Of a DNA stretch of 21,921 nt, positions 7,024 through 21,821 are shown one piece after another. Position 1 is the first letter of the stretch; the number at the start of each line of letters is the position of its first letter. The position numbers and the translations under genes are program-made. The notes beneath the pieces were generated by a model. The model worked only from the letters and a program-made list of their open reading frames with translations, did no database searches and was not told the origin of the DNA. The stretch lies in IMG/VR virus record IMGVR_UViG_3300009420_000107, positions 1-21,921 of that record; one strand, written 5' to 3'. Origin of the DNA: a virus.

Positions 7024-7026
7024 TTA

Positions 7027-7410
7027 TTATCCTCCAAACACAACAGCAAAGGCGAGAATATCTCCGGTCAATGCTAATGTTCCACTAGAATTTGGTAGTT
7101 TAATCGTTCTATCAGCTGTTGGATTTTCTACCGTTAATGTTGTTTCAAAGGCGTCAGCTGTGTTACCTTCAAAAATAATGTTTGCATTATTAAAAGTTAA
7201 GTCAGTAGTTGCAATAGCACCTGCTGTTAATACTGATTGAATATCAACCGCAGAAGCACCACCTACTTCTTTAATAGTACTTGAATTTTGTTTAGTATAA
7301 AACTTACCATCAGCAATGTTCATTGCCAATTCACCAATTTCTAAATCAGATAATTGAGGAACAGCAGAAGCTGTAAAACTTCTTTTTGGTTTTAGGACTT
7401 GGTCTGCCAT
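7027..7410 (-). CDS. Short fibre protein with Mtd-like N-terminus, 127 aa
   Basis: The N-terminus (KPKRSF...VPQLSDLEIGELAMNIADGKFY) matches the pattern 'KRS...P.L..GELA.N..D.K.Y' of the N-terminal domain of phage major tropism determinants and hyaluronidase-like fibres, which attaches fibres to the particle. Residues 76-117 (FEGNTADAFETTLTV then IKLPNSSGTL) are closely similar to residues 162-203 of the 433-residue fibre protein at 20520-21821. The gene begins inside the stop of the upstream fibre gene (TAATG). With only 127 residues it lacks a receptor-binding tip, so it may be an adaptor, a truncated fibre, or one chain of a composite fibre. The fibre-family call is good; its precise role is inferred. 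Confidence 0.78.
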   Translation of the reverse strand: MADQVLKPKRSFTASAVPQLSDLEIGELAMNIADGKFYTKQNSSTIKEVGGASAVDIQSVLTAGAIATTDLTFNNANIIFEGNTADAFETTLTVENPTADRTIKLPNSSGTLALTGDILAFAVVFGG

Positions 7411-9146
7411 TAGAACAATCCACCGTCAATAGTATTCAATTCAACAGCACCACTTGTTACCGTAAATTGTGTACTATGAAATGACGCAACTCCTTTATTA
7501 CTTGTACTTGCGTCTTCGCCAGCAATTGTAATTGAAGAACCTGAAGCAGAAGTATCAATTCCTTCTCCAGCAGAAATAGTTAATGTATTTCCTAATCCAA
7601 CCGTACCAGTTCCAGTCTCACCAGCAAGTAAAAGATTTGGATCCGCAAGTTTAGAGTTTGCAATACTTCCTGCTAACATAGCACTTGTAATTCCAAGCGC
7701 CTTAACTTGTAGTTTGTCTGATACTACTTCTATTGTCTGGTTATCGACATTAACATCTAAAGTGTTTCCTGATTTTACCATAGCTGCACCGGCAACTACT
7801 TGACCAGCACCAGAGAATTGTGATACAGGTAATTCAGTATTGTTTGAAAGTGTATTATCGTTTAATGTTGGTGTACCGTTGTGAGTGAATACATAACCGT
7901 TATCACTATTAGCAGTACCTTCTTCTACGAAAGTAAATGTACCACCAGTTAAGTCAGTACCTAAATTTGCGTCTAATGCTCTTGTTAATCTCCAGTTAGA
8001 AGAACCGTCACCAACGATTTCTACAAAGTAAATACCGTTTTGTCTAGCTTCTGTTTGGTCTTTAACTACAACTCTGTCATTTACTAGCAATGAAATACCG
8101 TCAATTGTTAAAGCGGCTTGAGTTGCGTTGTTGTCTAATCTTCCATTTGATTGGTCATATGTTGCAGATAAGTTTGCTGTAGTAGCAACTCTACAACTAT
8201 CTTTTACATCTAAACCACTTGAAGCACTATCAACATATTCTTTTGTTGCAAGTGAGTCAGCAGCGAAACCTGCTCTATCTTTATAACCACTAGGTACGGT
8301 AACCGTTCCAGTTCCGTGTGGTGTGAAAGTAATATTTCTATTTGCAGCTGATGTAGCAATGTCTTGTCCATCTATTGTTAAATGGTCAACAACTATATTT
8401 GTTAATCCAGCAATGTCAGTTGTAGTAGCACCGAGAGTTAATGCAGTAGTACCTAAGGTTACACCGTCATTTGCAAGTTTAACATTTGATACGGCACCGT
8501 CAGCAAGTTTTGCTGTGCTAATTCCACCGTCTTGTACATTTATAGTAACCGTATTACCGGAAACTGCTGTATCAATCGTTCCATCACCTGTAAGTAATAG
8601 AGTCGAGTTAGTTGAGTAATCTGTTGTTGCACCGGCACTATCTTCAATTGTAAGTGTAGTATCTACAGCGTCAAATCCTAATTGAGCTTCTGTACCAGAG
8701 GCAGAGATTACTTTTAGAAATTGTCCTTGAGAACCTGCACCGTCAGGTAGTAATAGTGTTGATGAATTTGTTAGTGATAATGGAGCCTTTAAAACAATGT
8801 TGTTTGAACCGTTGTTTGTAGCCTCATTAAAAGTTATACGACCAGAGTTAGTGGTTTCGTTACCAATTATAATCTCGTCTATTCTTTTATTTGAATCTGT
8901 TGTTATTAGTTTTTCAGCAGCGACAGCACCGTTCGTTGTTGGAAATAAACTAGTGAAATACTTACCACCAATTACATCAAGGTCGTTTGCGTTTCCTGAA
9001 CCGTCTACGCCACCTGCACCTACGAATAGTCTATCACCATTGTTGCCAGCGGTACCTGTACCATATGTAAATGCTAATTCACCAAGTTTTAATGATAGTG
9101 GGGCAGCGACATTGGAACTTCTTTTTATTCTGATTATTGTTGACAT
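7410..9146 (-). CDS. Tail fibre / virion structural protein, 578 aa
   Basis: The protein starts [20 protein letters not shown] and LGELAFTYG, then [10 protein letters not shown], again the fibre N-terminal pattern (IKRS, GELA). Repeated Thr/Ser/Asn-rich beta segments follow, for example [20 protein letters not shown], a pattern typical of trimeric phage fibres. Near the middle, [20 protein letters not shown] with [20 protein letters not shown] and GIYFV is a segment widely found in phage fibre and baseplate proteins. The C-terminus ends TIDGGLF. No endosialidase or lyase motif is seen. It follows the 85-residue gene by 30 bases, with an AGAGAGAG ribosome-binding site, and overlaps the next start by one base. 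It is very likely part of the host-recognition apparatus; ligand unknown. Confidence 0.82.
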
Positions 9147-10535: not shown

Positions 10536-11292
10536 AACTTATATACTCCACATTCTTACATTCATTCCATTCCGGAATATTAACATTTAACATATTCTGT
10601 CTATTTACTTTATAAAACTTTACCGAATGATACGACTTGAAGAGTTGACGCCATTGTAATATCCAATTTTGTAAGTAATATTGACTAGGGTGTTTATCAG
10701 ACTTGTAATAAGGTTGTCCAGCATATATGTTATTAAATTTATTTGACATACTATATATGTCGTGTCCTATTAGGTAAACTTCTTTCAATTCTGCTACTTC
10801 TTTACAAGCAACAAAACCACTTGCAGGACCTGTTGCCCAAGTTAACTCGTCACCACCGTCAACTAAATCTGTAAAACTTTTTACTTTATCACCTGTCAAC
10901 CAACTAATGTTGACCATATTCTTTCCTGTTTCTTTATCATTGTATCCGTGCAAAACAAAACTATTAGAACCTACTCTTTGATTTTCTACAAGTAAACCTG
11001 AATTCCTAATTGCTCTTATATGTCTATACCCAGGAAAGAAACCATTTACCATATTCTCGTAATGTTCGTGTGGTACAGGATTCCAATCTCTAAAATAACA
11101 TTTAGCCGTATAACTATAACCTGAATGATAAATGCTGTGCATAACAGGATGGTCCATTGCAACTAAAATGTCAGGTGCAAAATCTTTGTACAGATTATTA
11201 CAACCTAAGATAACACCTCGTCCTTGAATAGTAGAAAATTTAAAACCTTTTCTACTTTGACCATTGCCTATAAGAAACGCTCTATTTGCCAT
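10498..11292 (-). CDS. Rossmann-type, DUF115/MptE-like putative glycosyltransferase
   Basis: The 264-residue protein starts MANRAFLIGNGQSRKGFKF, a glycine-rich loop after the first strand, followed by GRGVILGCNNLYKDFAPDIL and VAMDHPVM. Later it has ATGPASGFVACKEVAELKEV followed by YLIGHDIY. These signatures resemble the MptE/DUF115 and sialyltransferase-like group in which 'IGNGPS', 'GCN', 'D' and 'TGP.A...A' line a nucleotide-sugar or pterin diphosphate site. A sugar-transfer role, for instance on a fibre residue or a cell-surface glycan, is an inference. The gene starts 11 bases inside the upstream radical SAM gene, and a predicted hairpin lies just before its ATG; no clear ribosome-binding site is seen. 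It could instead be a non-catalytic Rossmann protein. Confidence 0.68.
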   Translation of the reverse strand: MANRAFLIGNGQSRKGFKFSTIQGRGVILGCNNLYKDFAPDILVAMDHPVMHSIYHSGYSYTAKCYFRDWNPVPHEHYENMVNGFFPGYRHIRAIRNSGLLVENQRVGSNSFVLHGYNDKETGKNMVNISWLTGDKVKSFTDLVDGGDELTWATGPASGFVACKEVAELKEVYLIGHDIYSMSNKFNNIYAGQPYYKSDKHPSQYYLQNWILQWRQLFKSYHSVKFYKVNRQNMLNVNIPEWNECKNVEYISYERMETQTRSIS

Positions 11293-12253
11293 ATCTAAAA
11301 CTATAAGTATCTAACAGATACCTATATCCATTGCAACCATCTTTTAGAGTTTTAACATATCTATAGTGTTCAGTTAAACATCTACCTAAATATTCACACT
11401 TACGACATATATCAGAAATATTTTGTTCTTTCTCTTTTTGACACCATACTTCGTAATCAGCAAAACTATCAAGTTCTAAAAAATACTCATTATCATCTTT
11501 ATCAAAATCTAATACAGCAAATTTACCATTAGGTGTAATATATAAGTGGTCATCACTATATGCGTTGTATTGATGATTAAGAGAATCTTTTATGTTCTCT
11601 TCATTAATAAATGCAAATTTATTTTGCTGATATCCTTCTCTTGTTTTTACACTTTTAAATTCTTCTATCATCTTTATTATAAAGTCTTCAAAGTCAGCGT
11701 GTGTCGCACCTAATTGATTTGCTTGATTTGTACTATAAGGTTTAATTTCAAATCCTTTAAAGTTTTTATTATCTACACCTAATTTAATCATCTTTGACCA
11801 AATACTTTGTGTTGATATTTTCATAACTTCTGGTGTTGCCAACATTAAAACAGAAAACTCAACAGGCAAAGTTCTCATATTATCATAAACTTGTTCGTGT
11901 TTCTCTCTGGTCTCCATATCATAACTAACACTTATAAAATAATCAGGATTCATAAACTCACTTCTTACCATAGATAAGTTTGTGTTTATATTAATCTTGT
12001 CTTTGTAATATATCTTAATTGCGTTAGTAATCTTTTCTAGGTTGTCTTCTTTTAATACACCTATCTCACCACCATATAAATCAATGTGTTCTATGTCTCT
12101 ATGAGTTTGTACTTCATTTAATAGTTCACTTAATTTAAAGTGGTCAATACATTTATTATCACCTAATTGGTCAGGCGTAAGATAACACCAATTACATCTA
12201 AAATTACAAAAATAAGATGGATTGATTGATAGATTAATTTTCCGCTTCGTCAT
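11282..12253 (-). CDS. Radical SAM protein with degenerate SPASM/twitch C-terminus
   Basis: In the 323-residue protein, C16-X3-C20-X2-C23 (CNFRCNWC) is the site for the radical SAM [4Fe-4S] cluster, and LYGGEIG near 59-65 is the SAM-binding GGE motif. The C-terminal part has C283-X2-C286-X5-C292, then His296 where SPASM proteins have the next Cys, and C307. The strand before it (YITPNGKFAVLDFD) aligns with the usual 'PDG.v..C' segment but lacks that Cys. So at most one auxiliary cluster is likely (twitch-like), unlike the other three radical SAM proteins here. The start has GAGGA eight bases before the ATG and lies 20 bases inside the upstream gene. The likely role is radical modification of a peptide or small molecule; substrate unknown. 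Confidence 0.85.
   Translation of the reverse strand: MTKRKINLSINPSYFCNFRCNWCYLTPDQLGDNKCIDHFKLSELLNEVQTHRDIEHIDLYGGEIGVLKEDNLEKITNAIKIYYKDKININTNLSMVRSEFMNPDYFISVSYDMETREKHEQVYDNMRTLPVEFSVLMLATPEVMKISTQSIWSKMIKLGVDNKNFKGFEIKPYSTNQANQLGATHADFEDFIIKMIEEFKSVKTREGYQQNKFAFINEENIKDSLNHQYNAYSDDHLYITPNGKFAVLDFDKDDNEYFLELDSFADYEVWCQKEKEQNISDICRKCEYLGRCLTEHYRYVKTLKDGCNGYRYLLDTYSFRYGK
11302..11326 (-). other. Predicted RNA hairpin just upstream of a start codon
   Basis: On the minus-strand RNA, UAUAGGUAUCU, loop GUU, AGAUACUUAUA can form an 11-bp stem (one G-U pair) ending 9 bases before the ATG at 11292. It lies within the end of the radical SAM gene. It may modulate translation of the glycosyltransferase-like gene or be a chance outcome of AT-rich coding sequence. 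Confidence 0.4.
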
Positions 12254-12794
12254 AATTCAATTCCTCAATAGACTTTAATAACATTCTTTTACTTCTACTA
12301 AACAAAATATTTCTTAAAATTGTTTCTTTTTCAAATAGTCCTATCCATAGATAATGATAGTCAATATGATTTCTCATAAACAATCTATTCAGTTCAGCAT
12401 ACTCTTGTTCTTTATCTAAAGTGTAATCTACTCGTTCTAATAGTTCACCCTTTACATTTGCTTGTTGTTCTTTTATTTTATATGATATACCAGATATATG
12501 TTTTGTTTTATTAATGATATCTGTTATTCTATCTAATTTGTTTTTACCACCTAACGCCAACATTATATAAAATGGCATATGGTGTTTCTTTGTAAAATGT
12601 CCTTCGCAACTTGATATTGGAAGAAAACCTTTTCTAATAAATTCATGGCAATGAGGTAATACACCTTTCTCAACTTCAATGTCAAAGTCTTTGTCAAATG
12701 GACTTACTGATAGAGCTAGATACCCATTTGAATAATCTAAATCTTGTTCTTGTGAGGCGTGTATTCTGCCGTTTTCAAATTTTTTATTTTTCAT
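12234..12794 (-). CDS. Hypothetical protein with SSCEGH motif, 186 aa
   Basis: I cannot assign a family. The central part has PHCHEFIRKGFLPISSCEGH followed by FTKKHHMPFYIMLALG (about residues 47-82). The 'G..pisSCeGH' segment, with nearby Cys and His residues, is reminiscent of small proteins where a Cys-Gly-His loop sits beside a beta-strand, and could bind a metal or a nucleotide. The C-terminal half is helical and Lys/Glu/Arg-rich. It overlaps the upstream 2OG oxygenase gene by 4 bases (ATGA) and the downstream radical SAM gene by 20 bases, so it is translated together with both and may assist one of them, which is inference. No signal peptide or membrane segment. Confidence 0.72.
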   Translation of the reverse strand: MKNKKFENGRIHASQEQDLDYSNGYLALSVSPFDKDFDIEVEKGVLPHCHEFIRKGFLPISSCEGHFTKKHHMPFYIMLALGGKNKLDRITDIINKTKHISGISYKIKEQQANVKGELLERVDYTLDKEQEYAELNRLFMRNHIDYHYLWIGLFEKETILRNILFSRSKRMLLKSIEELNYDEAEN

Positions 12795-13336
12795 ATATTA
12801 TAATTAAAACATCCTACAATTCGTTCATTGTTAATTAATTTAAATTTACCAACTTTGTGTTCCCATACTTTACTATGATTTAAAAATATTAAATCGTTCT
12901 TACCTGGATATAACCAACAAGACAATGACTTTGTTTGTTTATGTCTTACTGATAAAGAACCACCTTGTTCTTCATTACAGGCATTTGTAAAGTACATTAG
13001 TATAGCAATGTTAGCTCCTTCTTTCAAGTCATTGTGCCATAGTGTACTTTCATAGTCTACACCATTGACAATGTTTGGTCGTCCGTGTAATTCGTATTTA
13101 CTAGACACCTTACTAATATATTTATCACCCAAATATTTGTGGGTTGTGGCGAGTGCGTGTGCTACCTTTTCAGTATGTACAGCAATCGTATACTCTTTAT
13201 CTGTTTCTACAAAAGGTATTTGTATACCTTCAAAGAATTTAAATGGTGCAAGGTCTTTATGTGGCCACACTCCATTTATTACCAGATTTGATAAATCGTG
13301 TTCACCCCTCACTTGTCCATCTCCATTTAATTGCAA
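12791..13336 (-). CDS. 2-oxoglutarate/Fe(II)-type oxygenase, second of pair
   Basis: A 181-residue reading frame shows the double-stranded beta-helix signature: H101-x-D103 in LWHNDLKEG, the strand ANIAILMYFTNAC, GGSLSV, then PGKNDLIFLNHSKVWEHKVG with distal His160, and Arg172 in NERIVGCF for the 2-oxoglutarate carboxylate. Members hydroxylate proteins, peptides or small molecules; many T4-like marine phages carry them near structural genes. The start is uncertain: the longest frame begins with TTG at 13336, 35 bases inside the upstream oxygenase gene, with no ideal ribosome-binding site; in-frame GTG codons occur at residues 9 and 23. The catalytic core does not depend on this choice. It is distinct in sequence from the oxygenase upstream, not a simple duplication. 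Confidence 0.83.
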   Translation of the reverse strand: MQLNGDGQVRGEHDLSNLVINGVWPHKDLAPFKFFEGIQIPFVETDKEYTIAVHTEKVAHALATTHKYLGDKYISKVSSKYELHGRPNIVNGVDYESTLWHNDLKEGANIAILMYFTNACNEEQGGSLSVRHKQTKSLSCWLYPGKNDLIFLNHSKVWEHKVGKFKLINNERIVGCFNYNI

Positions 13337-13754
13337 GTCTTGTCTTTTCTCCCCAATAAGGCATTGCCCTATGTACTAAATGAGAGTCCATAATAAACAT
13401 TGCGTTTTGTCTAAAGTCATATGTCTTATCTTCAACTTGTATTTGTCCACCTTTATTTAAATCACCTTGTAGATATAATATAATAGTCTTCTCTCCTTTT
13501 ACATCGCTGTCTGTATGAAAACCTATAATATTCTTTTCTTCGTTTTTACTATTTACAGAAATAACATATCTAACAATACAATGTTTTATGTCAGGTACAT
13601 TTAATTTACAAATACTATCTACCCAATCCCAGTCGTCTGGTAATTTCTTGTGAACATTCTTCTCATAGACAGGATATTCTTTACCTAGATTACCTAGTTC
13701 AGCAATCATATGATTGAGTTCTAAACTTGTCATTACATTATTCTTAACTAACAT
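13302..13754 (-). CDS. 2-oxoglutarate/Fe(II)-type oxygenase, first of pair
   Basis: About 150 residues. The C-terminal half shows GFHTDSDVKGEKTIILYLQG, with the metal-binding H-x-D at residues 80 and 82. The segment QNAMFIMDSHLVHRAMPYWG supplies the distal His at 128, and the following KTRLAIKWRW supplies the Arg (139) that would bind 2-oxoglutarate. This is the prolyl-4-hydroxylase-like fold in its minimal form. I chose the ATG at 13754 because GAGAG lies five to seven bases before it; an ATG four codons upstream (13766) lacks a ribosome-binding site. It overlaps the radical SAM gene upstream by 11 bases and the second oxygenase downstream by 35 bases. The likely substrate is a peptide or protein side chain, by analogy; not shown. 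Confidence 0.85.
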   Translation of the reverse strand: MLVKNNVMTSLELNHMIAELGNLGKEYPVYEKNVHKKLPDDWDWVDSICKLNVPDIKHCIVRYVISVNSKNEEKNIIGFHTDSDVKGEKTIILYLQGDLNKGGQIQVEDKTYDFRQNAMFIMDSHLVHRAMPYWGEKTRLAIKWRWTSEG

Positions 13755-14838
13755 ATTCTCTCTCATAAGGTGTCATTTCTATATGTGATTTATTATTTGC
13801 AACCAAAATATCTTTTCCAATTCTTTTCATCTTCTCACAATGTTTCTCTACAACTCCTGCCTCTTTATAATCTTTCACGGTCTTTCTACAACCATTACAT
13901 ATGTTAAACATAGGACAACTATAGCAACTTTTCTTCATTGTAGATAAATTTAAGTCATCTTGTAAAGGTGTAAAAAACTTACCTTTCATTTCTTCTTCAA
14001 AGTCTATCGCTTTGTCTTTATCATCACCAAATGCACCACAACTATAGTAGTCACCATCTGGTTGTAAACATCTTATACCTTCATCACATTTTCTACTTAA
14101 CGGACAACTTGTAGCAGTATCATTTATTGCTAACATCATCTGTCTAGTATTAAACTCCCAAGGTGCTAGACCTGCCTTATAAATCTCTACATACTTCTCA
14201 TATATATCTGATAACAAAAACGGCTCTTTTTGTTCGCCACTTGCCATTGCATAATTCAATTTACATTCTACACCTGTCTTCTCTTCTCTCCAGAAGTTAT
14301 GTAATGTGCCTTCAGGTATTTTCTGTTCGGACATCTTCTTTGCAAGTTCAACATTCTTTATTGCGTTGTGTTCATTCTCTCTTGTAATAACGGATATAAA
14401 GTCTGGTCTATAACCACAATGTTCTAACATTGCGTCTGAACACTTATAAAAGTCCTCTTCTGTAAATTCAGAATAGTCACCTTTTAATCTACCACCACCA
14501 TATTGAAAAGAAGTTGTGATACCAACTCTTTCGTTATTAAATAAGTCAACCCACTTACTAGGTTTCTTATAGAACGGCCATAAGTTTGTCGTTAATGCAA
14601 GTGAAGTAGTATATTCTCTTTCGTCTAACCAATCAATAATCTTCCAATAGTAATTAGGTTCCATCATTAATGGGTCACCACCATTTACTATGATTGTTTT
14701 TGTTTCTGGGAATCTTTCTAAAAAACGAAATATCTGGTCATGTTTTAACCAGTTCTTTTTCTCATCTGTAAGCTGCGTACTAGAACAAAATGAGCATTTG
14801 AAATTACAAAGTTCAGTAGGTTTAATTATTAAATCCAT
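13744..14838 (-). CDS. Radical SAM/SPASM protein, 364 aa
   Basis: C11-X3-C15-X2-C18 (CNFKCSFC) marks the SAM cluster, and IIVNGGDPL near 49-57 the GGD/E motif. The C-terminal domain is cysteine-rich: C245, C251, C257, C267 (CLQPDGDYYSC), then C305-X2-C308-X5-C314-X2-C317 and C334. This is a SPASM layout with enough cysteines for two auxiliary [4Fe-4S] clusters, as in anaerobic sulfatase-maturing enzymes and RiPP maturases. The last-but-one spacing (X2 rather than X3) is slightly unusual. The start ATG follows AGGA and lies 10 bases inside the upstream gene. Peptide or protein modification is the usual job of the family; the substrate here is unknown, and an activase-like role cannot be excluded. 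Confidence 0.88.
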   Translation of the reverse strand: MDLIIKPTELCNFKCSFCSSTQLTDEKKNWLKHDQIFRFLERFPETKTIIVNGGDPLMMEPNYYWKIIDWLDEREYTTSLALTTNLWPFYKKPSKWVDLFNNERVGITTSFQYGGGRLKGDYSEFTEEDFYKCSDAMLEHCGYRPDFISVITRENEHNAIKNVELAKKMSEQKIPEGTLHNFWREEKTGVECKLNYAMASGEQKEPFLLSDIYEKYVEIYKAGLAPWEFNTRQMMLAINDTATSCPLSRKCDEGIRCLQPDGDYYSCGAFGDDKDKAIDFEEEMKGKFFTPLQDDLNLSTMKKSCYSCPMFNICNGCRKTVKDYKEAGVVEKHCEKMKRIGKDILVANNKSHIEMTPYEREYVS

Positions 14839-15461
14839 TTTCCTATCCAGTTCAATCCTGTAGTAGATTCTTTATTTCTAATCCAGTAATCTTTTAGTTT
14901 ACCTTCTTTAACTTTGTCAAAACCAAACTGCCACATTATTTCTCTATGATATGGTTCTTTCTGTGCTCTCATTTGATTCATTGTCAGGTGTAACCAATCA
15001 AAGTAAGTACCAGACGGACATAATATATCTCTACCTTTAAATATGTTTATCGTATCACACCACATTTGTCTAATTAGTTTTCTGTTTTCTGTTGGAGGTC
15101 TGTTCTTCATGTATCCTGCATATTTTAAAGAACCGACTATAACATACTCATTATAGATATGAAACATACCTACGCCCTTAATATAAGTGCTAGGCGTACC
15201 ATTTTGAACCCATTGTCTCTCGCCTTTTGTTTTTTGTGCAATCTCGTATAGTTCAGGATCCTCTTCTTTCTTGCCTAACCATAAAAACATATGTGCTCGT
15301 CTACCATCTATTCTAGGAAGATATGGTTTCTCAACAGGAAAGTAATCTAGTTGTACTTCGATATGTTTAGGAAAATTATAGCCTAATTTAGTTTGCGATA
15401 TAGTTTCGCTGTACTCGTACATCTTCGATATATCGGTGCGTAAGCTTGTAAACACATTCAT
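14829..15461 (-). CDS. Hypothetical protein, 210 aa
   Basis: I do not recognise this protein. It has a mixed alpha/beta look with many aromatic residues: HIEVQLDYFPVEKPYLPRID, RRAHMFLWLGKKEE, GVGMFHIYNEYVIVGSLKYA and CPSGTYFDWLHLTMNQMRAQ. No cofactor motif, signal peptide or membrane segment is seen. The start is set by a strong AAGGAGG six bases before the ATG at 15461; a longer frame from 15488 lacks such a site. With this start it still overlaps the upstream radical SAM gene by 74 bases in another frame, and overlaps the next radical SAM gene by 10 bases. Being wedged between two radical SAM genes, it may be a partner or substrate-recognition protein, which is only inference. Confidence 0.75.
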   Translation of the reverse strand: MNVFTSLRTDISKMYEYSETISQTKLGYNFPKHIEVQLDYFPVEKPYLPRIDGRRAHMFLWLGKKEEDPELYEIAQKTKGERQWVQNGTPSTYIKGVGMFHIYNEYVIVGSLKYAGYMKNRPPTENRKLIRQMWCDTINIFKGRDILCPSGTYFDWLHLTMNQMRAQKEPYHREIMWQFGFDKVKEGKLKDYWIRNKESTTGLNWIGKWI

Positions 15462-16440
15462 CCAACTCCTCCTTGTATCTATAATCATGGTTCATAAAAC
15501 AGCCAAGTGTACATCTATCTAAAAATTCACAACTACTACAATTATACTTCTCTAGGAAAGAGTTTTCTATTATACTATTGTCTCTTGGTTTAATGGGCGA
15601 CTTGTATTGACTTATATCTTGTTCTTCTTGTACAAGGTTACCACATTGACATAATGTACCATCTGCTAATACAAGTTTTGAAACTCTACAACTTGCATAA
15701 TTCTTTTTGTTAAATATCCAATCTCTAACAGGATGAACATTAGGATATTTGTCAACACAATGTTTAAAAAACTTTAATAATAGTTCATCGCCAGGCATAT
15801 TAAACTTTGCGTGTTCATCTGGCATATAATAATCAAAGTAAATATACTTACCTTGTTTATACAGATAGTCAAAGTATTCATCACCTTCATTTAAATAAAA
15901 GTTAATATTAGGCTTTGTAAGTAAACAAGAAAAACAGGTTACTTCATCACCCCAAAATTCTACATTAGATTTAAATATCTCAAAGTCTTTTTTATTAAAT
16001 CTACCTCGTGGGTCATAACTTGTTGTAAGTCTACTAGGTATATCTTCTTCTCTGGACCAAGTGAGTAAGTCCATAATAAGTTCATTACCTTCATCTGAGG
16101 TAACCAAGTTAGACACCCAATTGATTGAAAATTCTTTATTGTGTTTTTGACATATCTTTTTTATGCCTTTTACTAGAAGTTTATATCCGTCATTTAAATC
16201 TTTGTTATAGATTGCAGGTGCAAAGACTTCGCCACCCATAATATTAAAGGTGACCTTCATATACATTTCTTTTGAGATAAATTTTTCTATAGAAGGAAGT
16301 TTGTCAACCACATTATCAACACCGATTTTATTGTCGTGGTTCTGCCAACAGAAATTACAACGCAAATTACAAAATTCAAATAAATGAATAGTGTACTCTT
16401 GCTCTGGGTCTCTTTTGGGGTCTATTAAAAACTCTCGCAT
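15388..16440 (-). CDS. Radical SAM/SPASM protein, 350 aa
   Basis: C24-X3-C28-X2-C31 (CNLRCNFCW) binds the radical SAM cluster; NIMGGEVF near 66-73 is the GGE motif. The C-terminal SPASM region has C251, then LADGTLCQCGN (C264, C266), then an exact C301-X2-C304-X5-C310-X3-C314 and C329. Additional cysteines at 169 and 172 (CFSC) lie in the barrel. The set is sufficient for two auxiliary clusters. The gene has AGGAG seven bases before its ATG and follows the 371-residue gene by 8 bases. Its last 74 bases are also read in another frame as the start of the 210-residue protein. The architecture is that of peptide/protein-modifying maturases; substrate unknown. A role on the Cys-His protein upstream is possible but the first radical SAM gene is closer. 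Confidence 0.88.
   Translation of the reverse strand: MREFLIDPKRDPEQEYTIHLFEFCNLRCNFCWQNHDNKIGVDNVVDKLPSIEKFISKEMYMKVTFNIMGGEVFAPAIYNKDLNDGYKLLVKGIKKICQKHNKEFSINWVSNLVTSDEGNELIMDLLTWSREEDIPSRLTTSYDPRGRFNKKDFEIFKSNVEFWGDEVTCFSCLLTKPNINFYLNEGDEYFDYLYKQGKYIYFDYYMPDEHAKFNMPGDELLLKFFKHCVDKYPNVHPVRDWIFNKKNYASCRVSKLVLADGTLCQCGNLVQEEQDISQYKSPIKPRDNSIIENSFLEKYNCSSCEFLDRCTLGCFMNHDYRYKEELDECVYKLTHRYIEDVRVQRNYIAN
15466..15474 (-). promoter_or_regulatory. Strong ribosome-binding site AAGGAGGAG inside a coding region
   Basis: The minus strand reads AAGGAGGAG, near-perfectly complementary to the 16S rRNA tail, placed just before the ATG at 15461. It lies within the radical SAM gene and decides the start of the 210-residue protein. 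Confidence 0.75.
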
Positions 16441-16448
16441 TTAAACTC

Positions 16449-17564
16449 CTATGAGTTTGCGAATAGTCTGTATTTTCCTAGTTTGTCTGTATCGTTAGAT
16501 TTCTTTAATGAGAAGAGATATTGTAAAAATGTATAATTAATATTTCCAATATCAAATCTAGGAATAAAAGATAGACTAGATGGACTATTCACGGTTTCAG
16601 TTATAATTGTATCAAAGTCAGTAGAAGATAAACTTGAAGCACAAGCTTTATCTAAATGGTTCATAAAGTAATCAGGATCCGGAGAGTTTTGGAAATCATA
16701 TAGGTCTTTAATTAATGCTTTCAATGCAGTTTGTTTGTCTGTTGAAAGACCGTCAATGTTTGCAATATTTACAGCACCTACATTTGCAGTAGGTTTTTGC
16801 GTAAATACATCTTCGTCAGCAAATGGTGCTAATGGTGTAATACCTGAAAATGGATTGTCATTATTTAAATCAACATCATCACTAGTATAACCTAATGCAG
16901 TTTGTTGATTAGTATTCAAAAGATTTAGAGCAGCACCTTCTCTACTATCTGTTAATACTTCTTTATAAAATCTTTTTAAGAATAAATGCCAAGTAGACAA
17001 TAAGTTTGCTTGGTGAGTATCAGCACCTGCAAAGTATTCGCCTAATAATAATTCAATTGAGAAATTTAAATTAAGAGCTTTAATTCTATCTAAATCAAGT
17101 GTAGGTAATACATTAAAATATCCTGCAACATCTCCTAGACCAGCATTAATTTTTGTTAGCGCTAGCGTGTGAGTAGGTTGCAATTGTGTATTTGCAATAA
17201 TTTTTTCGTGGTGTAAATTAATATCTAAAAACTTCTGTACTGCTGTTTGGTCAACAAATGGTAACATAGTTTTTAACCAGGTTACTGATAAGTTTAAGTA
17301 TGCTTCACTATCGCAGTAAATAATAACTTTGGTACCTAGAGTACTTTGTTTTAATTTTACATCTTCAAAGAAACCAGTTAAGTCAGTATACTTACCTGCC
17401 ATTGCATTAACATTGTGTGAATAGTTAATTAAAGTTCCTCTGTATGTAGTTTGCAGTTCCTGGTGCATTTCATTACCAGTTTCTGCTGATATTACATATC
17501 TGTTTGTATGACAATCAATTGAATCGTCAAACGCTAAATAGACTTTATTAAATAAGTGTAGCAT
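16449..17564 (-). CDS. Hypothetical island protein, 371 aa
   Basis: I do not recognise a family. The first third looks like an alpha/beta fold (HLFNKVYLAFDDSIDCHTNR, YVISAETGNEMHQELQ, KVIIYCDSEAYLNLSVTWLK); the rest is helical with loops (LNFSIELLLGEYF, WHLFLKRFYKEVL). A flexible Asn/Pro/Thr-rich linker lies near residues 230-275. The start strand followed by D-D-S-I-D and the later 'IIYCDSEAYL' could form a nucleotide- or metal-binding edge, but no known catalytic motif is complete. It follows the 221-residue gene by a single base (TAATATG) and precedes a radical SAM gene by 8 bases. Together with the 221-residue protein it may form part of the machinery handling the Cys-His protein; this is inference from gene order alone. 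Confidence 0.75.
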   Translation of the reverse strand: MLHLFNKVYLAFDDSIDCHTNRYVISAETGNEMHQELQTTYRGTLINYSHNVNAMAGKYTDLTGFFEDVKLKQSTLGTKVIIYCDSEAYLNLSVTWLKTMLPFVDQTAVQKFLDINLHHEKIIANTQLQPTHTLALTKINAGLGDVAGYFNVLPTLDLDRIKALNLNFSIELLLGEYFAGADTHQANLLSTWHLFLKRFYKEVLTDSREGAALNLLNTNQQTALGYTSDDVDLNNDNPFSGITPLAPFADEDVFTQKPTANVGAVNIANIDGLSTDKQTALKALIKDLYDFQNSPDPDYFMNHLDKACASSLSSTDFDTIITETVNSPSSLSFIPRFDIGNINYTFLQYLFSLKKSNDTDKLGKYRLFANS

Positions 17565-17565
17565 A

Positions 17566-18231
17566 TTAGTTTTTCTCTTTACCTTTTAAATATTCTTTTG
17601 TATCAAATTTACCTTCGGCAATTGCCCAAGTCATTAAGAATAGTGGATTACTTTCTGTCGCCCAATATTCAAATAAAGATTTACCTTTAAACATATAATC
17701 TTTAAAGTACTTCGTATAGTTCTTAACAATACCTTCTTTTTGTATTTGATAATAACTATAAAATTCTTTGTGTTTTAATAATGAAACAAAGTTAATACCT
17801 CTAACATCTTCTGTCTCGTCTTTAGGATAACTCTCAACAAATTCATTAAAAGCACCTTCACCAACGATTGACATATTATACAATGGTAGACTTTCTAATT
17901 TGCCTTCCCACTTGTCAAGTATTTCTTTGTTCTTTTCTATAACACTCTTATATTTATCTGTCTTTGACAACCCCTTGTGTTCAAATAATACAGCGATTAT
18001 TTCTTTTTCTAATTTAGGTATATTTACTAACATTTGTGTGTTAAGATATTCACTAATTAGTTCTTCGTCCATATTTAATATATCACAAGGTATATCTAAA
18101 TTACTTAAATAGGTTAGAAACTGAGCACCTTTTAATGTGCTGTTTTCGTAATCAATAAGATAACTTTCTGTCTTATCTTCAAAGTATTTTTTTAAGTCTT
18201 TCAATTCAATCGGTACAATAGTATTAATCAT
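17566..18231 (-). CDS. Hypothetical island protein, 221 aa
   Basis: The protein is mostly helical and rich in Lys, Glu, Leu and Tyr, with no cofactor motif, signal peptide or membrane span. Recognisable stretches are LIDYENSTLKGAQFLTYLSN near 26-44, PKLEKEIIAVLFEHKGLSK near 73-91, and SLFEYWATESNPLFLMTWAI near 187-206. One Cys only, in DIPCDILN. Its ATG overlaps the stop codon of the Cys-His protein gene (TAATG), and its ribosome-binding site (GAGGAAGAAGA) is made from the codons for that protein's terminal Arg-Gly-Arg-Arg. Such tight coupling suggests matched production with the Cys-His protein, so a chaperone, recognition or assembly partner is a reasonable guess but not demonstrated. Confidence 0.75.
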   Translation of the reverse strand: MINTIVPIELKDLKKYFEDKTESYLIDYENSTLKGAQFLTYLSNLDIPCDILNMDEELISEYLNTQMLVNIPKLEKEIIAVLFEHKGLSKTDKYKSVIEKNKEILDKWEGKLESLPLYNMSIVGEGAFNEFVESYPKDETEDVRGINFVSLLKHKEFYSYYQIQKEGIVKNYTKYFKDYMFKGKSLFEYWATESNPLFLMTWAIAEGKFDTKEYLKGKEKN

Positions 18232-19004
18232 TATCTTCTTCCTCTACTTCCGTGACAACTACTATGACAGCTACTATGACATATAGTTTTTGTTAATGTA
18301 TAAGTGTTACCTCTTTCAGTAGAATATGCGTTTGCAAGGCTCGACATAAACGATTCTAAATTTGTATCGTCAATTGTTTGACCAGGTTGTAAACTACTAG
18401 GTTGTGATGGATTTAATGTTGTTCTTTGTGCAGTTGTTAAGTGTGCAATTTGTGTATCCGAATATTGTGTTCCTGCACCTGTCATACTAACTATAGCGTA
18501 TGTATTTTTGATATTAGTATAATTATTCATTTCTGCTTTTAGTGTACCGTAAATATTGTTTGCAGTAATTACTGAACCTGCATTACCGATATTAGAACCT
18601 GTGATACCAATTGATACAGCACTTATTACTGCTAAAGTATTAACCGTACCTACAGCACCTGAAGAAGTGCCTGATATAATATCGTTTTGTAAGAATCCTG
18701 TTTGACCAGCACCTGGATTAATTGTTCTTAATTTTAATACATTGCTAGAATAACTAACTACGATACCAGTTGTTGCAGTTATCGTAGAGTTAACCGTTTC
18801 ACCTGCTGTATAAGTTCCAGTCACACCTGTTAGTGTTAATTCAAATCCGTCAACAACACCACCAAAATCAGCAGAAGTAAATGAAGAGTGTCCTGGTAGA
18901 TTATCAGTACCCCATACAATATGGTGGTCTGCTACATCTGTTACCAGTTCTTCAAATCTATCAACTATATTTTGACTTGTTATCGGGTTGTTTAAAGTTA
19001 CCAT
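18231..19004 (-). CDS. Virion-like protein with terminal Cys-His repeat, candidate radical SAM substrate
   Basis: The 257-residue protein begins MVTLNNPITSQNIVDRFEEL and continues HHIVWGTDNLPGHSSFTSAD followed by FGG, a style I know from structural proteins of T4-like marine phages. The middle is beta-rich and Thr/Ser/Gly-rich (GVTGTYTAGETVNSTITATT, GTSSGAVGTVNTL). The last 16 residues are CHSSCHSSCHGSRGRR: Cys at 242, 246 and 250, each followed by His, in a period of four, then a basic tail. These are the only cysteines in the protein. The gene starts inside the end of a radical SAM/SPASM gene (7-base overlap) and its stop overlaps the next start. I infer a virion or adhesin protein whose tail is a modification target. 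A metal-binding tail without modification is the main alternative. Confidence 0.8.
   Translation of the reverse strand: MVTLNNPITSQNIVDRFEELVTDVADHHIVWGTDNLPGHSSFTSADFGGVVDGFELTLTGVTGTYTAGETVNSTITATTGIVVSYSSNVLKLRTINPGAGQTGFLQNDIISGTSSGAVGTVNTLAVISAVSIGITGSNIGNAGSVITANNIYGTLKAEMNNYTNIKNTYAIVSMTGAGTQYSDTQIAHLTTAQRTTLNPSQPSSLQPGQTIDDTNLESFMSSLANAYSTERGNTYTLTKTICHSSCHSSCHGSRGRR
18255..18281 (-). repeat. In-frame 12-base tandem repeat encoding Cys-His-Ser-Ser
   Basis: Two adjacent 12-base units on the minus strand, TGTCATAGTAGC then (C)ATAGTAGT within TGTCATAGTAGT, differ at one base. They are followed by a third partial copy, TGTCAC, just below 18258. Each full unit encodes Cys-His-Ser-Ser, so copy-number change would keep the frame. 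Confidence 0.7.
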
Positions 19005-20029
19005 TTCGCCTCACTTTGTTTTTTTAAGTGTTTCATAAGAGATTTAGGAGCGCCACATATGTCGTCTTGCCATGCTAATTGGTGACAATCGCCACCACAA
19101 TACTTAAATACTTCACACTCAAAGCATTTAGGATTTCTTGCTACTTCACAAGCAACATTTTCTAATCTCTTAGGACTATTTATAAGTTCTACTAGAGGGT
19201 CATCTATAGTTCCAAAATTAAACTCGGGAGCTGCATTAGGACAACCACCTATTGTGCCAGTTGCGTTAAGTGTAAATAGTTTTTGTTCACAATCTCGGCA
19301 GAAAGTGCCTTCTTTTGTTGAACCAGTATCAAATTTTGAGTAAATTGTTTCAAAAAACTCATTATCAAACCAATCTCTTGTGTTATACTGAATAGATTGC
19401 TCGTGCATTTTTAAAAACCACTTATCTTGTTCTATATTTCTAGGAAATATCTCTGGATGCAAGTTTGCATTACCATTTCCAGTCAATCTTTCAAGTGCCA
19501 TTTCTTTTACACCTAAATCTTTGACCCATTTAAGTAATTCAATAGGTTCAATTCTAATTGTGTCTTTGGTTACTGATATGAAGAGTTTAATATCAACACC
19601 TTCACTAATTAAAGTCTCTACATTCTTACGCCATAAGTTTGCTTGTTTCTCATTTGCAAATCTTATGTTAGGATCCCAACTAGTTCCACATCTATTTTTA
19701 AGTGGACCTTTAATGAAGTCAATGTGTTCTTGTTTTAGTTTAAATGTTAAGTTAGAAGTTATGCCCATTGATTGTTGAATCCACAAATCTTTTGTGTTCT
19801 CATAGACATATTGCATTTCAGACACAGGAACTAAAAACGGTTCGCCACCGTGTAGTTCTAAATGTGCTGTATCGTGTTTGTGAAAATTGTATTTTCTGAA
19901 ATCTTGTAACCACTTAATGGTTTTATCTGGATTCCAATAGACTTTAGGACCATTTGAACCTGAAGTAAAACAATGTTTACAATTCAAGTTGCAGGTTTCG
20001 GTTGTTTTTAAATAAAACATCCAATTCAT
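18998..20029 (-). CDS. Radical SAM/SPASM maturase-like protein, 343 aa
   Basis: C13-X3-C17-X2-C20 (CNLNCKHC) binds the radical SAM cluster; LELHGGEPF near 57-65 is the SAM-binding GGEP motif. The C-terminal domain has C244-X2-C247, C263 (GTIGGCPN), C294, then an exact SPASM core C302-X2-C305-X5-C311-X3-C315 and C325. This is the architecture of sulfatase-maturing enzymes and of radical SAM RiPP maturases that act on Cys, Ser or other side chains. I place the start at the ATG at 20029, with AGGAGT six bases before it; a longer frame from 20056 would need a TTG start. It overlaps the cupin gene stop by one base and the Cys-His protein gene by 7 bases, making that protein the most likely substrate. 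Confidence 0.9.
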   Translation of the reverse strand: MNWMFYLKTTETCNLNCKHCFTSGSNGPKVYWNPDKTIKWLQDFRKYNFHKHDTAHLELHGGEPFLVPVSEMQYVYENTKDLWIQQSMGITSNLTFKLKQEHIDFIKGPLKNRCGTSWDPNIRFANEKQANLWRKNVETLISEGVDIKLFISVTKDTIRIEPIELLKWVKDLGVKEMALERLTGNGNANLHPEIFPRNIEQDKWFLKMHEQSIQYNTRDWFDNEFFETIYSKFDTGSTKEGTFCRDCEQKLFTLNATGTIGGCPNAAPEFNFGTIDDPLVELINSPKRLENVACEVARNPKCFECEVFKYCGGDCHQLAWQDDICGAPKSLMKHLKKQSEAKW

Positions 20030-20508
20030 TATATAACTCCTATACTTAACCCCCAAGTATCTGCTTCGTTTTCAACATAATGTTTTACACCTTGTTCTAT
20101 GAATATTCCTTCATCATCATATACTGGTTTAATAACACCATCTAAAGATACTTTCTTTTTGCCTTTGACAACATATAAGTAAACATCTTTATCATCTTTA
20201 TGTTCTTTAAAACTAATACCTGGTTTCTGATTTACAAATAAATGAATATCTTGTCTTTTCTTTCCTGTGATATTCAATACTACTTCGTCTAAAACTTCTT
20301 TTAACCAGGCTACATCTTCTAAGCCTTCCACCTTAATAGTTTTAAATCTATCGTACTCTCTTATCCATTCTCCATAAGACATATGGTCTTTAACCTCACG
20401 GTCAAGTCCTTCTTCATCTATGTAAAATAGTTGTCTTGCTTCGTATCTAGTGTGTGATTGGATTTCTTCTTTTAATCTGGAAATCCATAAGATTGTTTGT
20501 TCGTCCAT
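20029..20508 (-). CDS. Cupin/JmjC-like Fe(II) oxygenase, 159 aa
   Basis: The C-terminal half reads DIHLFVNQKPGISFKEHKDD, then KDVYLYVVKGKKKVSLDG, then EGIFIEQGVKHYVENE. This is the 'H.D..DV.L..v.G.K.v' signature of JmjC/Cupin_4-type oxygenases: H103-x-D105 plus a distal His at 143 as metal ligands, with a Lys-rich strand that often holds 2-oxoglutarate. Known relatives hydroxylate His or Arg in proteins. The N-terminal half is helical and may recognise the partner. The ATG follows AAGGAG, which overlaps the stop of the fibre gene upstream. The stop overlaps the radical SAM start (TAATG). A hydroxylase acting on the same target as the radical SAM protein is a fair guess; a non-enzymatic cupin is possible. 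Confidence 0.72.
   Translation of the reverse strand: MDEQTILWISRLKEEIQSHTRYEARQLFYIDEEGLDREVKDHMSYGEWIREYDRFKTIKVEGLEDVAWLKEVLDEVVLNITGKKRQDIHLFVNQKPGISFKEHKDDKDVYLYVVKGKKKVSLDGVIKPVYDDEGIFIEQGVKHYVENEADTWGLSIGVI
20036..20041 (-). promoter_or_regulatory. Ribosome-binding site deciding the radical SAM start
   Basis: AGGAGT on the minus strand, six bases before the ATG at 20029 and inside the end of the cupin gene. It supports this ATG over the in-frame TTG at 20056. Confidence 0.65.
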
Positions 20509-20519
20509 AATATATCTCC

Positions 20520-21821
20520 TTATTTACCAACAACAGCTTCTATAACTCTCTCTTCGTTAGAATCGTCATTGACTAAACTTTTTCCAATTAATGCACCGTT
20601 TCTTGGTTCTGCTTCAGCTCTAGCACATCCTGCAATACTACAAGATACTAACATATCGCCTTTTCTTACAGGACCACATACTCTTACTGGTACTCTTCCT
20701 GTCATTGCTACCGTAGCGGTAACACCTTCTAAACTGCCATTCATAATAAAGGCAGGTTTTTCTGATTGAACACCAATAACTTTTGTGCAATGATTTTCTG
20801 TACATATAGTTACCTCAGCTGTGCCACCTATACATAAGACGGTACCTACTGGATATTCTCTATCAGATTTATACTTTTCTGCCAAGTCAGCATATCTTGC
20901 TGATGTAGCAGTTGTTGTTAAAATATTTGTTGATGGATTGTAATATAATCCTGAATCTGCTTTTAGAACATTTGAACCTGAAGTACTATCAGCAAAAGTT
21001 AAATATCTTGTTGCGTTTTGAGTATTTTCAGTAGTTAAATCTACAGCACTTGATAATGAAGCAGTACCTGTAATAGTATTTGCAACTAAAGTGTCAACCG
21101 TTAATGTTGCAGAATTAAATCCTGATAGTTTTGCAATCGTAACCGAGTTATCAGCAATTTGTGAAGTACTTACAGCATTATCTGCTATCATAGTTTGTGT
21201 AACCGTATTCGTATCACCAGAAGTAATAAGAGTACCACTAGCGTCAGGTAGTGTAATTACATTATCTTGTGATGGGTCGTCTACTCGTAATGTAGTTTCA
21301 AAACTATTAGGAGTAGCACCTTCAAATTGCATTGAAGCACCATTGATTGTTAATCCAGCACCAACAAGTGTACCACCGGCAGATATACCACCTGTTGTAT
21401 TTAATTGTTCGTTACCAAAATCAATTGTACCACTTGCAGAAGTAATTGAAGAAGTACCAATCTGTATGTTCGCAATCTCAGCTGTTGTTGCAACATCAAT
21501 TGTTGATAGACCAGTTAAGTTTGTATTTAATCCGATTGTTAATGTATCTGGATTTGATACCGTTGCAGTAAGACCTGTACCACTCGCTACGGTTAATGTG
21601 TTACCAGAGGCAATACCTTGTACATTCGTTCCATCTGTTAATGTGAAACCAGCAGCTGCAATTGCAATAGCATTGATTTCGTTAACAGCACCAATTACAG
21701 AAGTAGCAGATAAAGTAGGATCCAGAGTGGCAATATCACCAAAATCTGAGGACGCTAATGCGTTAAATTCTATTCGTAATTTATCTAAACTATCTGTTTC
21801 TGTTACCTGTCTTACAGCCAT
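20520..21821 (-). CDS. Fibre-like structural protein with Cys-rich C-terminal domain, 433 aa
   Basis: The N-terminus (MAVRQVTETDSLDKLRIEFN, then LSATSVIGAVNEIN) is of the type found in tail-fibre proteins of marine T4-like phages. The body consists of Thr/Ser/Asn/Ala-rich beta repeats, for example NAVSTSQIADNSVTIAKLSG. Residues 162-203 closely resemble residues 76-117 of the 127-residue fibre protein at 7027-7410. From about residue 310 (YADLAEKYKSDREYPVGTVL) a compact C-terminal domain follows, with GRVPVRVCGPVRKGDMLVSC and GALIGKSL; similar 'ADLAE.Y...GTVV' domains end many phage structural proteins. All six cysteines (330, 340, 345, 382, 394, 399) lie in this domain. AAGGAT inside the upstream gene serves as ribosome-binding site. 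It heads the transcript into the enzyme island. Structural call is good; fibre type unknown. Confidence 0.82.
   Translation of the reverse strand: MAVRQVTETDSLDKLRIEFNALASSDFGDIATLDPTLSATSVIGAVNEINAIAIAAAGFTLTDGTNVQGIASGNTLTVASGTGLTATVSNPDTLTIGLNTNLTGLSTIDVATTAEIANIQIGTSSITSASGTIDFGNEQLNTTGGISAGGTLVGAGLTINGASMQFEGATPNSFETTLRVDDPSQDNVITLPDASGTLITSGDTNTVTQTMIADNAVSTSQIADNSVTIAKLSGFNSATLTVDTLVANTITGTASLSSAVDLTTENTQNATRYLTFADSTSGSNVLKADSGLYYNPSTNILTTTATSARYADLAEKYKSDREYPVGTVLCIGGTAEVTICTENHCTKVIGVQSEKPAFIMNGSLEGVTATVAMTGRVPVRVCGPVRKGDMLVSCSIAGCARAEAEPRNGALIGKSLVNDDSNEERVIEAVVGK

Follow-up and report, generated by a model that had tools for sequence, protein, structure and literature searches.

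Radical SAM/SPASM enzymes paired with Cys-His repeat tails suggest chemical modification of fibre tips in phages and relatives of predatory bacteria

Here we describe a gene pair in a stretch of viral DNA, positions 1 to 21,921 of the IMG/VR virus record IMGVR_UViG_3300009420_000107 (all 21,921 bases are hereafter the window): a radical S-adenosylmethionine (SAM) enzyme with a SPASM domain, and a protein, here called the tail protein, that ends in a Cys-His repeat. Our results suggest that phages, many of them large, alter by chemical modification the tips of the structures with which they touch other cells, and that some relatives of predatory bacteria do the same. Our sequence comparisons give good support to a widespread pairing of enzyme and substrate on fibre-type proteins, and the data are best read as a dedicated system in which the radical SAM enzyme, along with a JmjC-like cupin protein, matures His-x-Ser repeats at the tip of a fibre. 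By comparing loci, we find that enzyme and tail co-occur with few exceptions, that the tail is conserved as protein, that its carriers are fibre-like or have fibre genes as neighbours, and that most of the divergent tails go with one enzyme clade.

In the window, the pair belongs to a cassette on the minus strand. The cupin gene (20029-20508), encoding a candidate Fe(II)/2-oxoglutarate (2OG) hydroxylase with a JmjC-like HxD-(13)-K-H pattern, is joined by a TAATG overlap to the gene of the partner enzyme (18998-20029; 343 residues; PHROG 1802, 3e-65; TIGR04085), whose ATG start lies at 20029; a TTG at 20056 is the mechanical start of the open reading frame (ORF), not that of the enzyme. A 7-base ATGGTAA overlap leads into the gene of the tail protein (18231-19004; 257 residues; PHROG 35144), the predicted substrate, modelled by AlphaFold2 as a folded body with a disordered C-terminal core; the core, CHSSCHSSCHGSRGRR, occupies 18231-18281 with its stop codon. 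The stop of the tail gene overlaps, in a second TAATG, the start of the next gene (17566-18231; 221 residues; PHROG 20767), which encodes an accessory protein that we named PIEL. These serial overlaps indicate that the four genes are coupled. A preliminary description of the window had reported the first three genes, their overlaps, the radical SAM/SPASM motifs and the Cys-His C-terminus, and we confirmed all of these.

Pairing of the enzyme and the tail

Starting from the enzyme, we collected the best 80 of 189 viral relatives and added isolated phages (four of 7 phage records matched), giving 84 loci. In every locus with room downstream (79/79), the DNA past the enzyme encodes, in the same orientation, a protein whose last residues read CHxxCHxxCHxxRxRR, and the remaining five loci stop 111-245 bases past the enzyme. 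A scan with alignment A1 (27 enzyme sequences), for which the E-values are relative, found the exact tail, among the matches listed, in 76 of 79 newly numbered loci, the exceptions (L304, L315, L330) being loci that end soon past the enzyme; many of these contigs had already appeared in the first enzyme scan. The exact tail was also present in 24 of 28 loci of jumbo phages like DT01, where one locus is cut (L389) and three carry variants (L396, L397, L400), and in 4/4 loci of the L210-like set. In the L126-like set (38 loci) the tail genes are more distant, being seen in the stretch around the enzyme in only 2 loci, and 11 of the 13 records searched over their whole length hold two tails each.

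The same association was found from the other side. A DNA pattern for the tail matched at least 119 viral stretches, in 118 of which an ORF finishes with the tail. Among the matches listed, the partner enzyme was present in the surrounding DNA of 84 of these 118 loci, as a fragment at the edge in 2, and elsewhere in the record in 26 more (the whole-record search covered 35 loci, 3 of them already having a partner nearby), for a total of 112/118, two as cut fragments; 23 of the 118 loci encode two tail proteins. The separation of the genes can be large, as in G001, where the enzyme lies about 11 kb from the tail gene. Isolated phages with the pair are Phosso, Atu_ph07, SURPRISE13, FLC6, FLC8 and pPa_SNUABM_DT01. 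The preliminary description had proposed a search of contigs for proteins with such tails beside a SPASM gene, and had held that tails occurring widely without a radical SAM neighbour would count against the idea; instead, the pairing that it proposed recurs in both directions, and the tail proved to be the conserved part of the protein. It should be noted that in one group of viral contigs (L085, L108, L116, L117, L126, L148 and others) two small tail proteins of about 124-140 residues are adjacent, with the enzyme several kb or more away.

Among genome contigs, 16 of 19 pattern matches end an ORF, in 14 genomes or bins, and the other three (L207, L208, L214), which have no tail ORF, were taken as chance. 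The partner enzyme is present in 13 of the 14 at E <= 1.2e-117. Some of the 14 look like phage contigs binned with cells: tail cassettes occur in contigs of metagenome-assembled genomes labelled Euryarchaeota and Bacteroidetes (L204, L211) that have this appearance, and a Rhodobacteraceae bin (L212, L216, L221; G049) has several cassettes on several contigs, which we took as phage contigs. Nevertheless, a phage-only system could be rejected, as Bdellovibrionota genomes carry the cassette with the same accessory genes. Across 290 genomes of this phylum, to which G038 belongs, the enzyme clade was found in 16 (all E <= 3e-107) and the exact tail in 8, versus 0/290 for the reversed pattern. The zero for the reversed pattern, together with the recurrence in 79/79 loci, places the tail beyond chance.

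The canonical end, with its six Cys/His residues and the Arg residues at -4, -2 and -1, is invariant in 168 tails that are distinct over their last 60 residues, an invariance partly imposed by the search pattern; the same invariance holds in the enzyme-first set (79/79), where the pattern imposes nothing. Identical 16-residue tails differ at up to 25 of 48 nucleotides, which argues that the tail is selected as protein, and both Cys codons and both His codons are used about equally. Two positions past the His, 496 of 582 units have Ser; the others have Asn (58), Ala (21), Gln (4), Arg (2) or Lys (1). Complete tail proteins (233) range from 124 to 364 residues, and 182 of them have no further cysteine outside the tail; in the window protein all three cysteines lie inside the terminal repeat. 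The body is the variable part, with a mean column identity of 19% in alignment A2 (32 sequences), and both the length and the sequence of canonical bodies vary widely. A tblastn search of phages with the tail protein returned nothing at E <= 0.01, though six isolated phages carry it, because little besides the tail is conserved. Four loci (L019-L022, about 7016-8384) show a split arrangement: the gene after the enzyme encodes a 308-residue tail-less paralogue with the usual N-terminus and a Gly-rich end that lacks the repeat, while a separate 140-residue protein behind it carries the repeat; the N-terminal and C-terminal parts are thus separable modules.

The eight Bdellovibrionota genomes with the enzyme and without the exact pattern were examined in stretches of 9.5-20 kb, and seven of them have a variant tail in the cassette: YCHGNFPPPCHGSRGRR in G270, G278 and G261, YCHTNVPTPPPCHASRGRR in G284, YCHSNHCSHSNHGSRGRR in G130, ICHSNCYTPPPKSRSRR in G110, and WCHSSHSSHSSHSSRGRR in G194, which keeps His-x-Ser/Asn and shows that Cys can go. 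CHSSHSSHSSHSSRGRR contains a single Cys with four His-x-Ser units, and CHGNFPPPCHGSRGRR contains two Cys, their enzymes belonging to the same wider clade. In the most divergent tails, His-x-Ser/Asn thus appears to outlast Cys. Six of the seven variant-tail genomes have enzymes that group together in the enzyme tree, in a clade with a support of 1.0. For the partner clade as a whole, which was picked by profile score, monophyly is a partly circular result. A strict pairing of tail type with enzyme clade was not upheld (G110, L396, L397, L400; G043, G045); enzyme and tail tend to change together, with exceptions. Variant-side enzymes in canonical-tail genomes, with no adjoining tail gene recognised, lie at 12306-13451 of L262, 1638-2765 of L263 and 5435-6562 of L264.

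Taken with the linkage, these tails make it very likely that the tail is the substrate of the partner enzyme. The tail could alternatively be left alone by its partner and serve as a metal-binding or disulfide-bonded Cys-His tip, with the radical SAM cassette acting elsewhere on the fibre module. Cys-His repeats could indeed bind metal, some partner-clade enzymes have no recognised tail gene nearby, the cassette contains three more radical SAM proteins and oxygenases without known substrates, and radical SAM cassettes are described in host-recognition islands of pelagimyophages in the available text of PMC7029224. However, the loss of Cys with retention of His-x-Ser is not obviously expected of a metal site, the linkage to one enzyme clade persists at a gene separation of about 11 kb, and six of the seven divergent tails belong with enzymes of a single clade. 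We consider such an unmodified tip quite unlikely.

The carrier protein and its fibre context

The AlphaFold2 model of the tail protein, built with 46 sequences, has a mean predicted local distance difference test (pLDDT) score of 89.6 and a predicted template modelling score of 0.81, with the last residues disordered (block mean pLDDT 60 and 52). The model thus presents the tail as a disordered end on a folded body, the latter making a release of the core by proteolysis look unlikely, and no protease for such a release was recognised among the genes scanned. PHROG 35144, which has no assigned function, matches the C-terminal part. The body itself had no match in the PDB at E <= 0.001, and the VIA rows cover only a beta-stranded insert at residues 52-129 (18618-18851 on the minus strand, from alignment A2 and the model), which is common to only the six nearest of the 32 A2 sequences. 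This insert resembles parts of phage structural proteins in a viral structure library, with VIA Z scores of 7.7 and 6.8 to baseplate proteins, to be read against about 6 for the unrelated eIF2-gamma; its matches to solved structures are weak and mixed with unrelated folds.

An indication of the nature of the carrier comes from the L396 protein, in which CHTSCHSSCHDSCHGD is followed by a Peptidase_S74 chaperone domain (1.5e-11, over the cut-off). Its units are CHTS, CHSS, CHDS and CHGD, and the repeat is internal, without RGRR; an autocleavage by S74, which we infer, would leave the repeat near the end of the mature fibre. This arrangement bears on the idea that the repeat serves as a removable tag for recognition or assembly that the enzyme or PIEL reads, the body being what is really modified. 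The terminal RGRR is nearly constant and could dock a partner, but the L396 repeat is internal and lacks it, and the body that would be modified is the variable part of the protein (19% mean column identity in A2), making a tag very unlikely.

In Bdellovibrionota, ten genomes were searched for S74 matches and nine counted, G049 being left out. A match lies within 15 kb of the tail in seven of the nine; in G043, where the tail is on another contig, the distance was measured from the enzyme (6/8 without G043), and G045 and G046 have no S74 match on the contig. Such proximity has a chance of about 1e-10 under uniform placement, with a 15 kb threshold that was chosen after the distances were known. 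Of six S74 proteins scanned for a type IV pilin-type start, four score over the cut-off, one is below it and one has none. The S74-ended proteins (L260 15955-17142, L262 4654-5691, L263 4628-5920, L265 1505-2542, L284 15452-16546 and L286 11575-12705) each adjoin a protein of roughly 200 residues ending in ..GRHWVKVK or similar, and a small protein with a Tat-like start is often near. As predator surface fibres with phage-like S74 chaperone tips, the mosaic adhesive trimer (MAT) proteins of Bdellovibrio (PMC10769870, in the text available) are similar; they differ in that four of the six scanned S74 proteins here have a pilin-type start and lie near the cassette, and the words 'radical' and 'pilin' were not found in the available text of the MAT paper.

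The tail protein is thus fused to a fibre chaperone in L396 and lies near chaperone fibre proteins in Bdellovibrionota, and the window cassette itself sits between tail-fibre-like genes, with PHROG tail-fibre matches nearby. Phage Atu_ph07 of Agrobacterium has gp170 as its tail protein, with gp215 being the major capsid protein in both numberings, and the accessible part of the virion mass-spectrometry paper (PMC6102473) names a virion-protein cluster CDS 170-215 (coding sequences), which suggests that gp170 is in the virion. The preliminary description had cast the carrier as a structural protein rather than a free peptide; the S74 fusion in L396 and the fibre-gene neighbours bear this out as a fibre-type carrier. 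We think it likely that the carrier is part of a fibre or virion, and somewhat probable that its tip is used in cell contact.

Candidate chemistry of the core

The likeliest chemistry, which we put forward tentatively, is a His-to-Ser/Asn cyclophane. The window enzyme carries the features of a radical SAM/SPASM maturase: the CX3CX2C motif (C13/C17/C20), GGEP (residues 61-64) and a SPASM CX2CX5CX3C set (C302/C305/C311/C315), the Cys set being constant or nearly so across A1. It scores above the cut-off of the SPASM model TIGR04085 (33.3 vs 27) and, as a single sequence, under that of Pfam Radical_SAM (23.1 vs 29.5 bits). Glu180, Arg181 and Thr183 are invariant in 32/32 partner enzymes and missing from the three paralogues in the window, which makes them candidates for substrate handling. 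The tail gene, for its part, resembles those of precursors of ribosomally synthesized and post-translationally modified peptides (RiPPs), being linked to a maturase gene and encoding a conserved core at the end of a variable protein.

Two chemistries centred on Cys have to be weighed. In the first, the third Cys of C-H-x-S-R would be oxidised to formylglycine, an aldehyde that would bond covalently to the target. The best full-length match of the enzyme among solved structures is indeed a sulfatase-maturing enzyme (anSME; profile match 4k37, residues 12-333, 6e-9), and TIGR03942, of the same function, matches at 6e-11, with 42 of 349 bits and hence far below the family cut-off. These enzymes are SPASM proteins of similar length that modify a full-size protein, and their substrate motif, C-x-[PA]-S-R, is resembled by C-x-x-S-R in the tail. 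However, Ala occupies the +2 position of this motif in only 4/194 tails and Pro in none, the position that we take to be that of D277, presumably the catalytic Asp after the SPASM Cys residues, is Pro (30) or Ala (2) in 32/32 partner enzymes, and three repeats would be left unexplained. With neither the substrate motif nor the Asp position in agreement, we rejected the formylglycine reading, which now seems extremely improbable.

In the second, the SPASM enzyme would link each Cys to a nearby residue by a thioether, as in ranthipeptides and sactipeptides, giving small rings. The Cys residues are constant in all canonical tails, and the enzyme has a profile match to 5wgg, which we take to be the thioether-forming CteB, and a weak full-length similarity to PapB (9e-11). 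Enzymes of the PapB/SCIFF type likewise combine a SPASM enzyme with a Cys-containing substrate tail. However, variant tails lack a Cys in every unit to act as donor, as CHSSHSSHSSHSSRGRR has one per four units and CHGNFPPPCHGSRGRR has two, and the score with the PapB model (41.6 of 340 bits) is far below the cut-off. Thioether rings are in our view improbable. The preliminary description had centred on Cys chemistry of these kinds on a RiPP-like core; the pairing, the conserved tail and the structural carrier are supported, and the Cys-centred part looks less likely, as the variants can lose most Cys and the Asp position is Pro or Ala throughout.

A cyclophane fits better than a thioether or formylglycine, since His-x-Ser/Asn triads match the joins from residue i to i+2 that SPASM cyclophane enzymes are known to make, including C2(His)-Cbeta(Ala) and C2(His)-Cbeta(Arg) in the accessible text of PMC11002830; the same text gives His as donor in HaaB and YhhB and lists Ser, Asn, Ala and Arg among the acceptors. 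The triceptide enzymes described there (XncB, OscB, MscB, YxdB, HaaB, YhhB) are similar in combining a SPASM enzyme with aromatic-x-residue triads and overlapping acceptors, and aromatic-X-X3 triads, the triceptide substrate pattern, are present in the tails. They differ in that their substrates are peptide precursors, not fibre or virion proteins (PMC11002830, as available), and in having no close enzyme similarity to the partner enzyme.

Based on these comparisons, we can outline how such a tip might be made. The folded body would display, at its disordered C-terminus, a core in which three His-x-Ser/Asn units, with a Cys ahead of each, lead to the RGRR end. The SPASM enzyme would abstract hydrogens and modify the units successively, the most likely bond being one from the His ring to the beta carbon two positions on, giving a three-residue cyclophane, and the JmjC-like cupin could then hydroxylate the core. 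Further changes to the core, or changes to neighbouring fibres, might come from the remaining radical SAM and 2OG enzymes of the cassette, and the finished tip would sit on a tail fibre in phages and on a pilin-like fibre in the predator relatives, where it would touch the target cell. That a disordered three-unit core on a fibre-type protein is modified by the partner enzyme seems to us probable. The fullest version, in which phages and predator-like bacteria share a covalently rewritten fibre tip with cyclophanes, hydroxylated and possibly C-methylated through the oxygenases of the cassette and, in relatives, radical SAM proteins of the B12 type, that grips target cells, is doubtful.

Several points weigh against this proposal. 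Both the modification and its chemistry are predictions from sequence. A His-x-Ser cyclophane does not explain the Cys before His in every canonical unit, and the enzyme shows no particular closeness to cyclophane enzymes already known. The loci are not independent, as contigs recur among the enzyme-first, tail-first and A1 scans. Six viral tail records (5.6, 7, 18, 24, 33 and 39 kb) and a 1.0-Mb bin (G042) have a tail without the enzyme, G335 (46 kb) and G338 (70 kb) have the enzyme without an exact tail, and G197 has the enzyme with no tail found in its cassette stretch. The unit is broken in CNCN (L400) and CYTPPPKSRSRR (G110), and the odd-tailed G110, L396, L397 and L400 have canonical-side enzymes. 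Conversely, the variant-side clade also holds the enzyme of G197 and second copies from G044 and G047, which have the canonical pair too, and G043 and G045 combine canonical tails with sole full partner enzymes that fall in this clade; no tail gene was recognised near the variant-side enzymes of G044, G047 and G043. As G043 and G045 are draft bins, a canonical-side enzyme may be missing from the assembly. Canonical tails in genomes with a variant-clade enzyme slightly lower our confidence in the proposal and in the tail as the substrate. Finally, all three printed clusters of Atu_ph07 span 46 CDS in the part of the paper available, so that the support from the virion is indirect.

Accessory genes and related systems

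The window cupin matches Cupin_2 above the cut-off (30.9 vs 27.2 bits). Its H103, D105 and K118 are constant, and H143 is present in at least 90%, of 20 sequences. K118 lies 13 residues past HxD and H143 is distal, so that the protein has both an iron triad and a Lys for 2OG; we assume residue roles as in JmjC hydroxylases, with HxD...H as the iron triad and Lys binding 2OG. A profile match to the histidyl hydroxylase MINA is weak (5e-4) and ranks behind ordinary cupins. We predict that the cupin is an oxygenase, with a Fe(II)/2OG hydroxylase as the candidate function.

Counted over 213 tail loci, which overlap and are cut at their edges, and with labels assigned here, the recurrent families are radical SAM (186), PIEL (182), cupin (141), MLHLF (137) and fibre (128), followed by a probable 2OG oxygenase (68), a second candidate 2OG oxygenase (52) and another radical SAM protein (52). 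A B12-binding radical SAM type is found in 45 (for example L061 11455-13005 and relatives), and C-methylation by it is conceivable; the Pfam matches to B12 (PF02310), PF04055 and 2OG are all under the curated cut-offs. The PIEL model has a pLDDT of 90.2, and the protein had no confident match in the PDB and no chain at VIA Z >= 5 (best 3.4), which does not by itself show a new fold. The conserved MLHLF protein, also named here (16449-17564, minus strand; 371 residues), had no convincing PDB match (best E 0.033).

Among known systems, the nearest in motif are the HXS systems, in which a His-x-Ser repeat protein reportedly lies beside radical SAM maturases and whose chemistry has, to our knowledge, not been established. 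His-x-Ser repeats beside a radical SAM enzyme, with Ser in 496/582 units, are common to both. Here, in contrast, Cys opens each canonical unit, the tail finishes with RGRR, and phages carry it on a fibre-type protein. Although the motif fits, we rejected membership, as the window enzyme scores far under the cut-offs of HxsB (31.1 of 370 bits) and HxsC (29 of 267.9); HxsA and HxsD gave no match among the matches listed for ten window proteins (for two of them, the best 25 rows). The systems, with their components HxsA/HxsB/HxsC/HxsD, are credited to Haft and Basu in the accessible text of PMC9062424. The curated cyclophane-forming families are no closer, with scores of 32.2 of 445 bits for YhhB and 25.3 of 370 for FxsB.

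Radical SAM cassettes of jumbo and marine T4-like phages have been noted before, without an assigned substrate in the texts available. Papers on Burkholderia phages list genes for the cupin, radical SAM and 2OG proteins but assign them no role (PMC11898562, PMC8066314), the presence of radical SAM cassettes can distinguish host-recognition clusters of pelagimyophages (PMC7029224), and 12 radical SAM genes occur in a single marine T4-like genome (PMC5332604), each as given in the accessible parts of these papers. The term 'radical SAM' is absent from the main text of two jumbo-phage overviews, our searches of open-access literature, supplements excluded, found no paper that links such a tail to a radical SAM enzyme, and strings of the tail motif matched only an irrelevant text of 1881. 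One enzyme clade now has a specific, testable candidate substrate, the predicted tryptic C-terminal fragment of the window protein being TICHSSCHSSCHGSR. If the tail is modified, post-translational peptide chemistry would be part of building contact tips in phages and predator relatives, with natural-product chemistry placed on the fibres of a virion or cell surface instead of a free peptide, which would matter for host range and for efforts to find new peptide crosslinks.

The remainder of the window cassette, all on the minus strand, contains three extra PHROG 1802 paralogues and probable 2OG oxygenases in one gene run: a second radical SAM protein (15388-16440; 9e-41), a third (13744-14838; 1e-56; Pfam Radical_SAM 29.6 vs a cut-off of 29.5 bits), a fourth (11282-12253; 7e-31), and a probable 2OG-Fe(II) oxygenase (12791-13336; 2OG-FeII_Oxy_3 at 25.8 bits, below the cut-off of 27). 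Their targets may be the same tail or fibres nearby. Directly upstream of the cassette, a tail-fibre-like protein (20520-21821, minus strand) had no Pfam match; it matches PHROG 22593, which has no assigned function (7e-15), and PHROG 19602, a tail fiber protein (3e-5).

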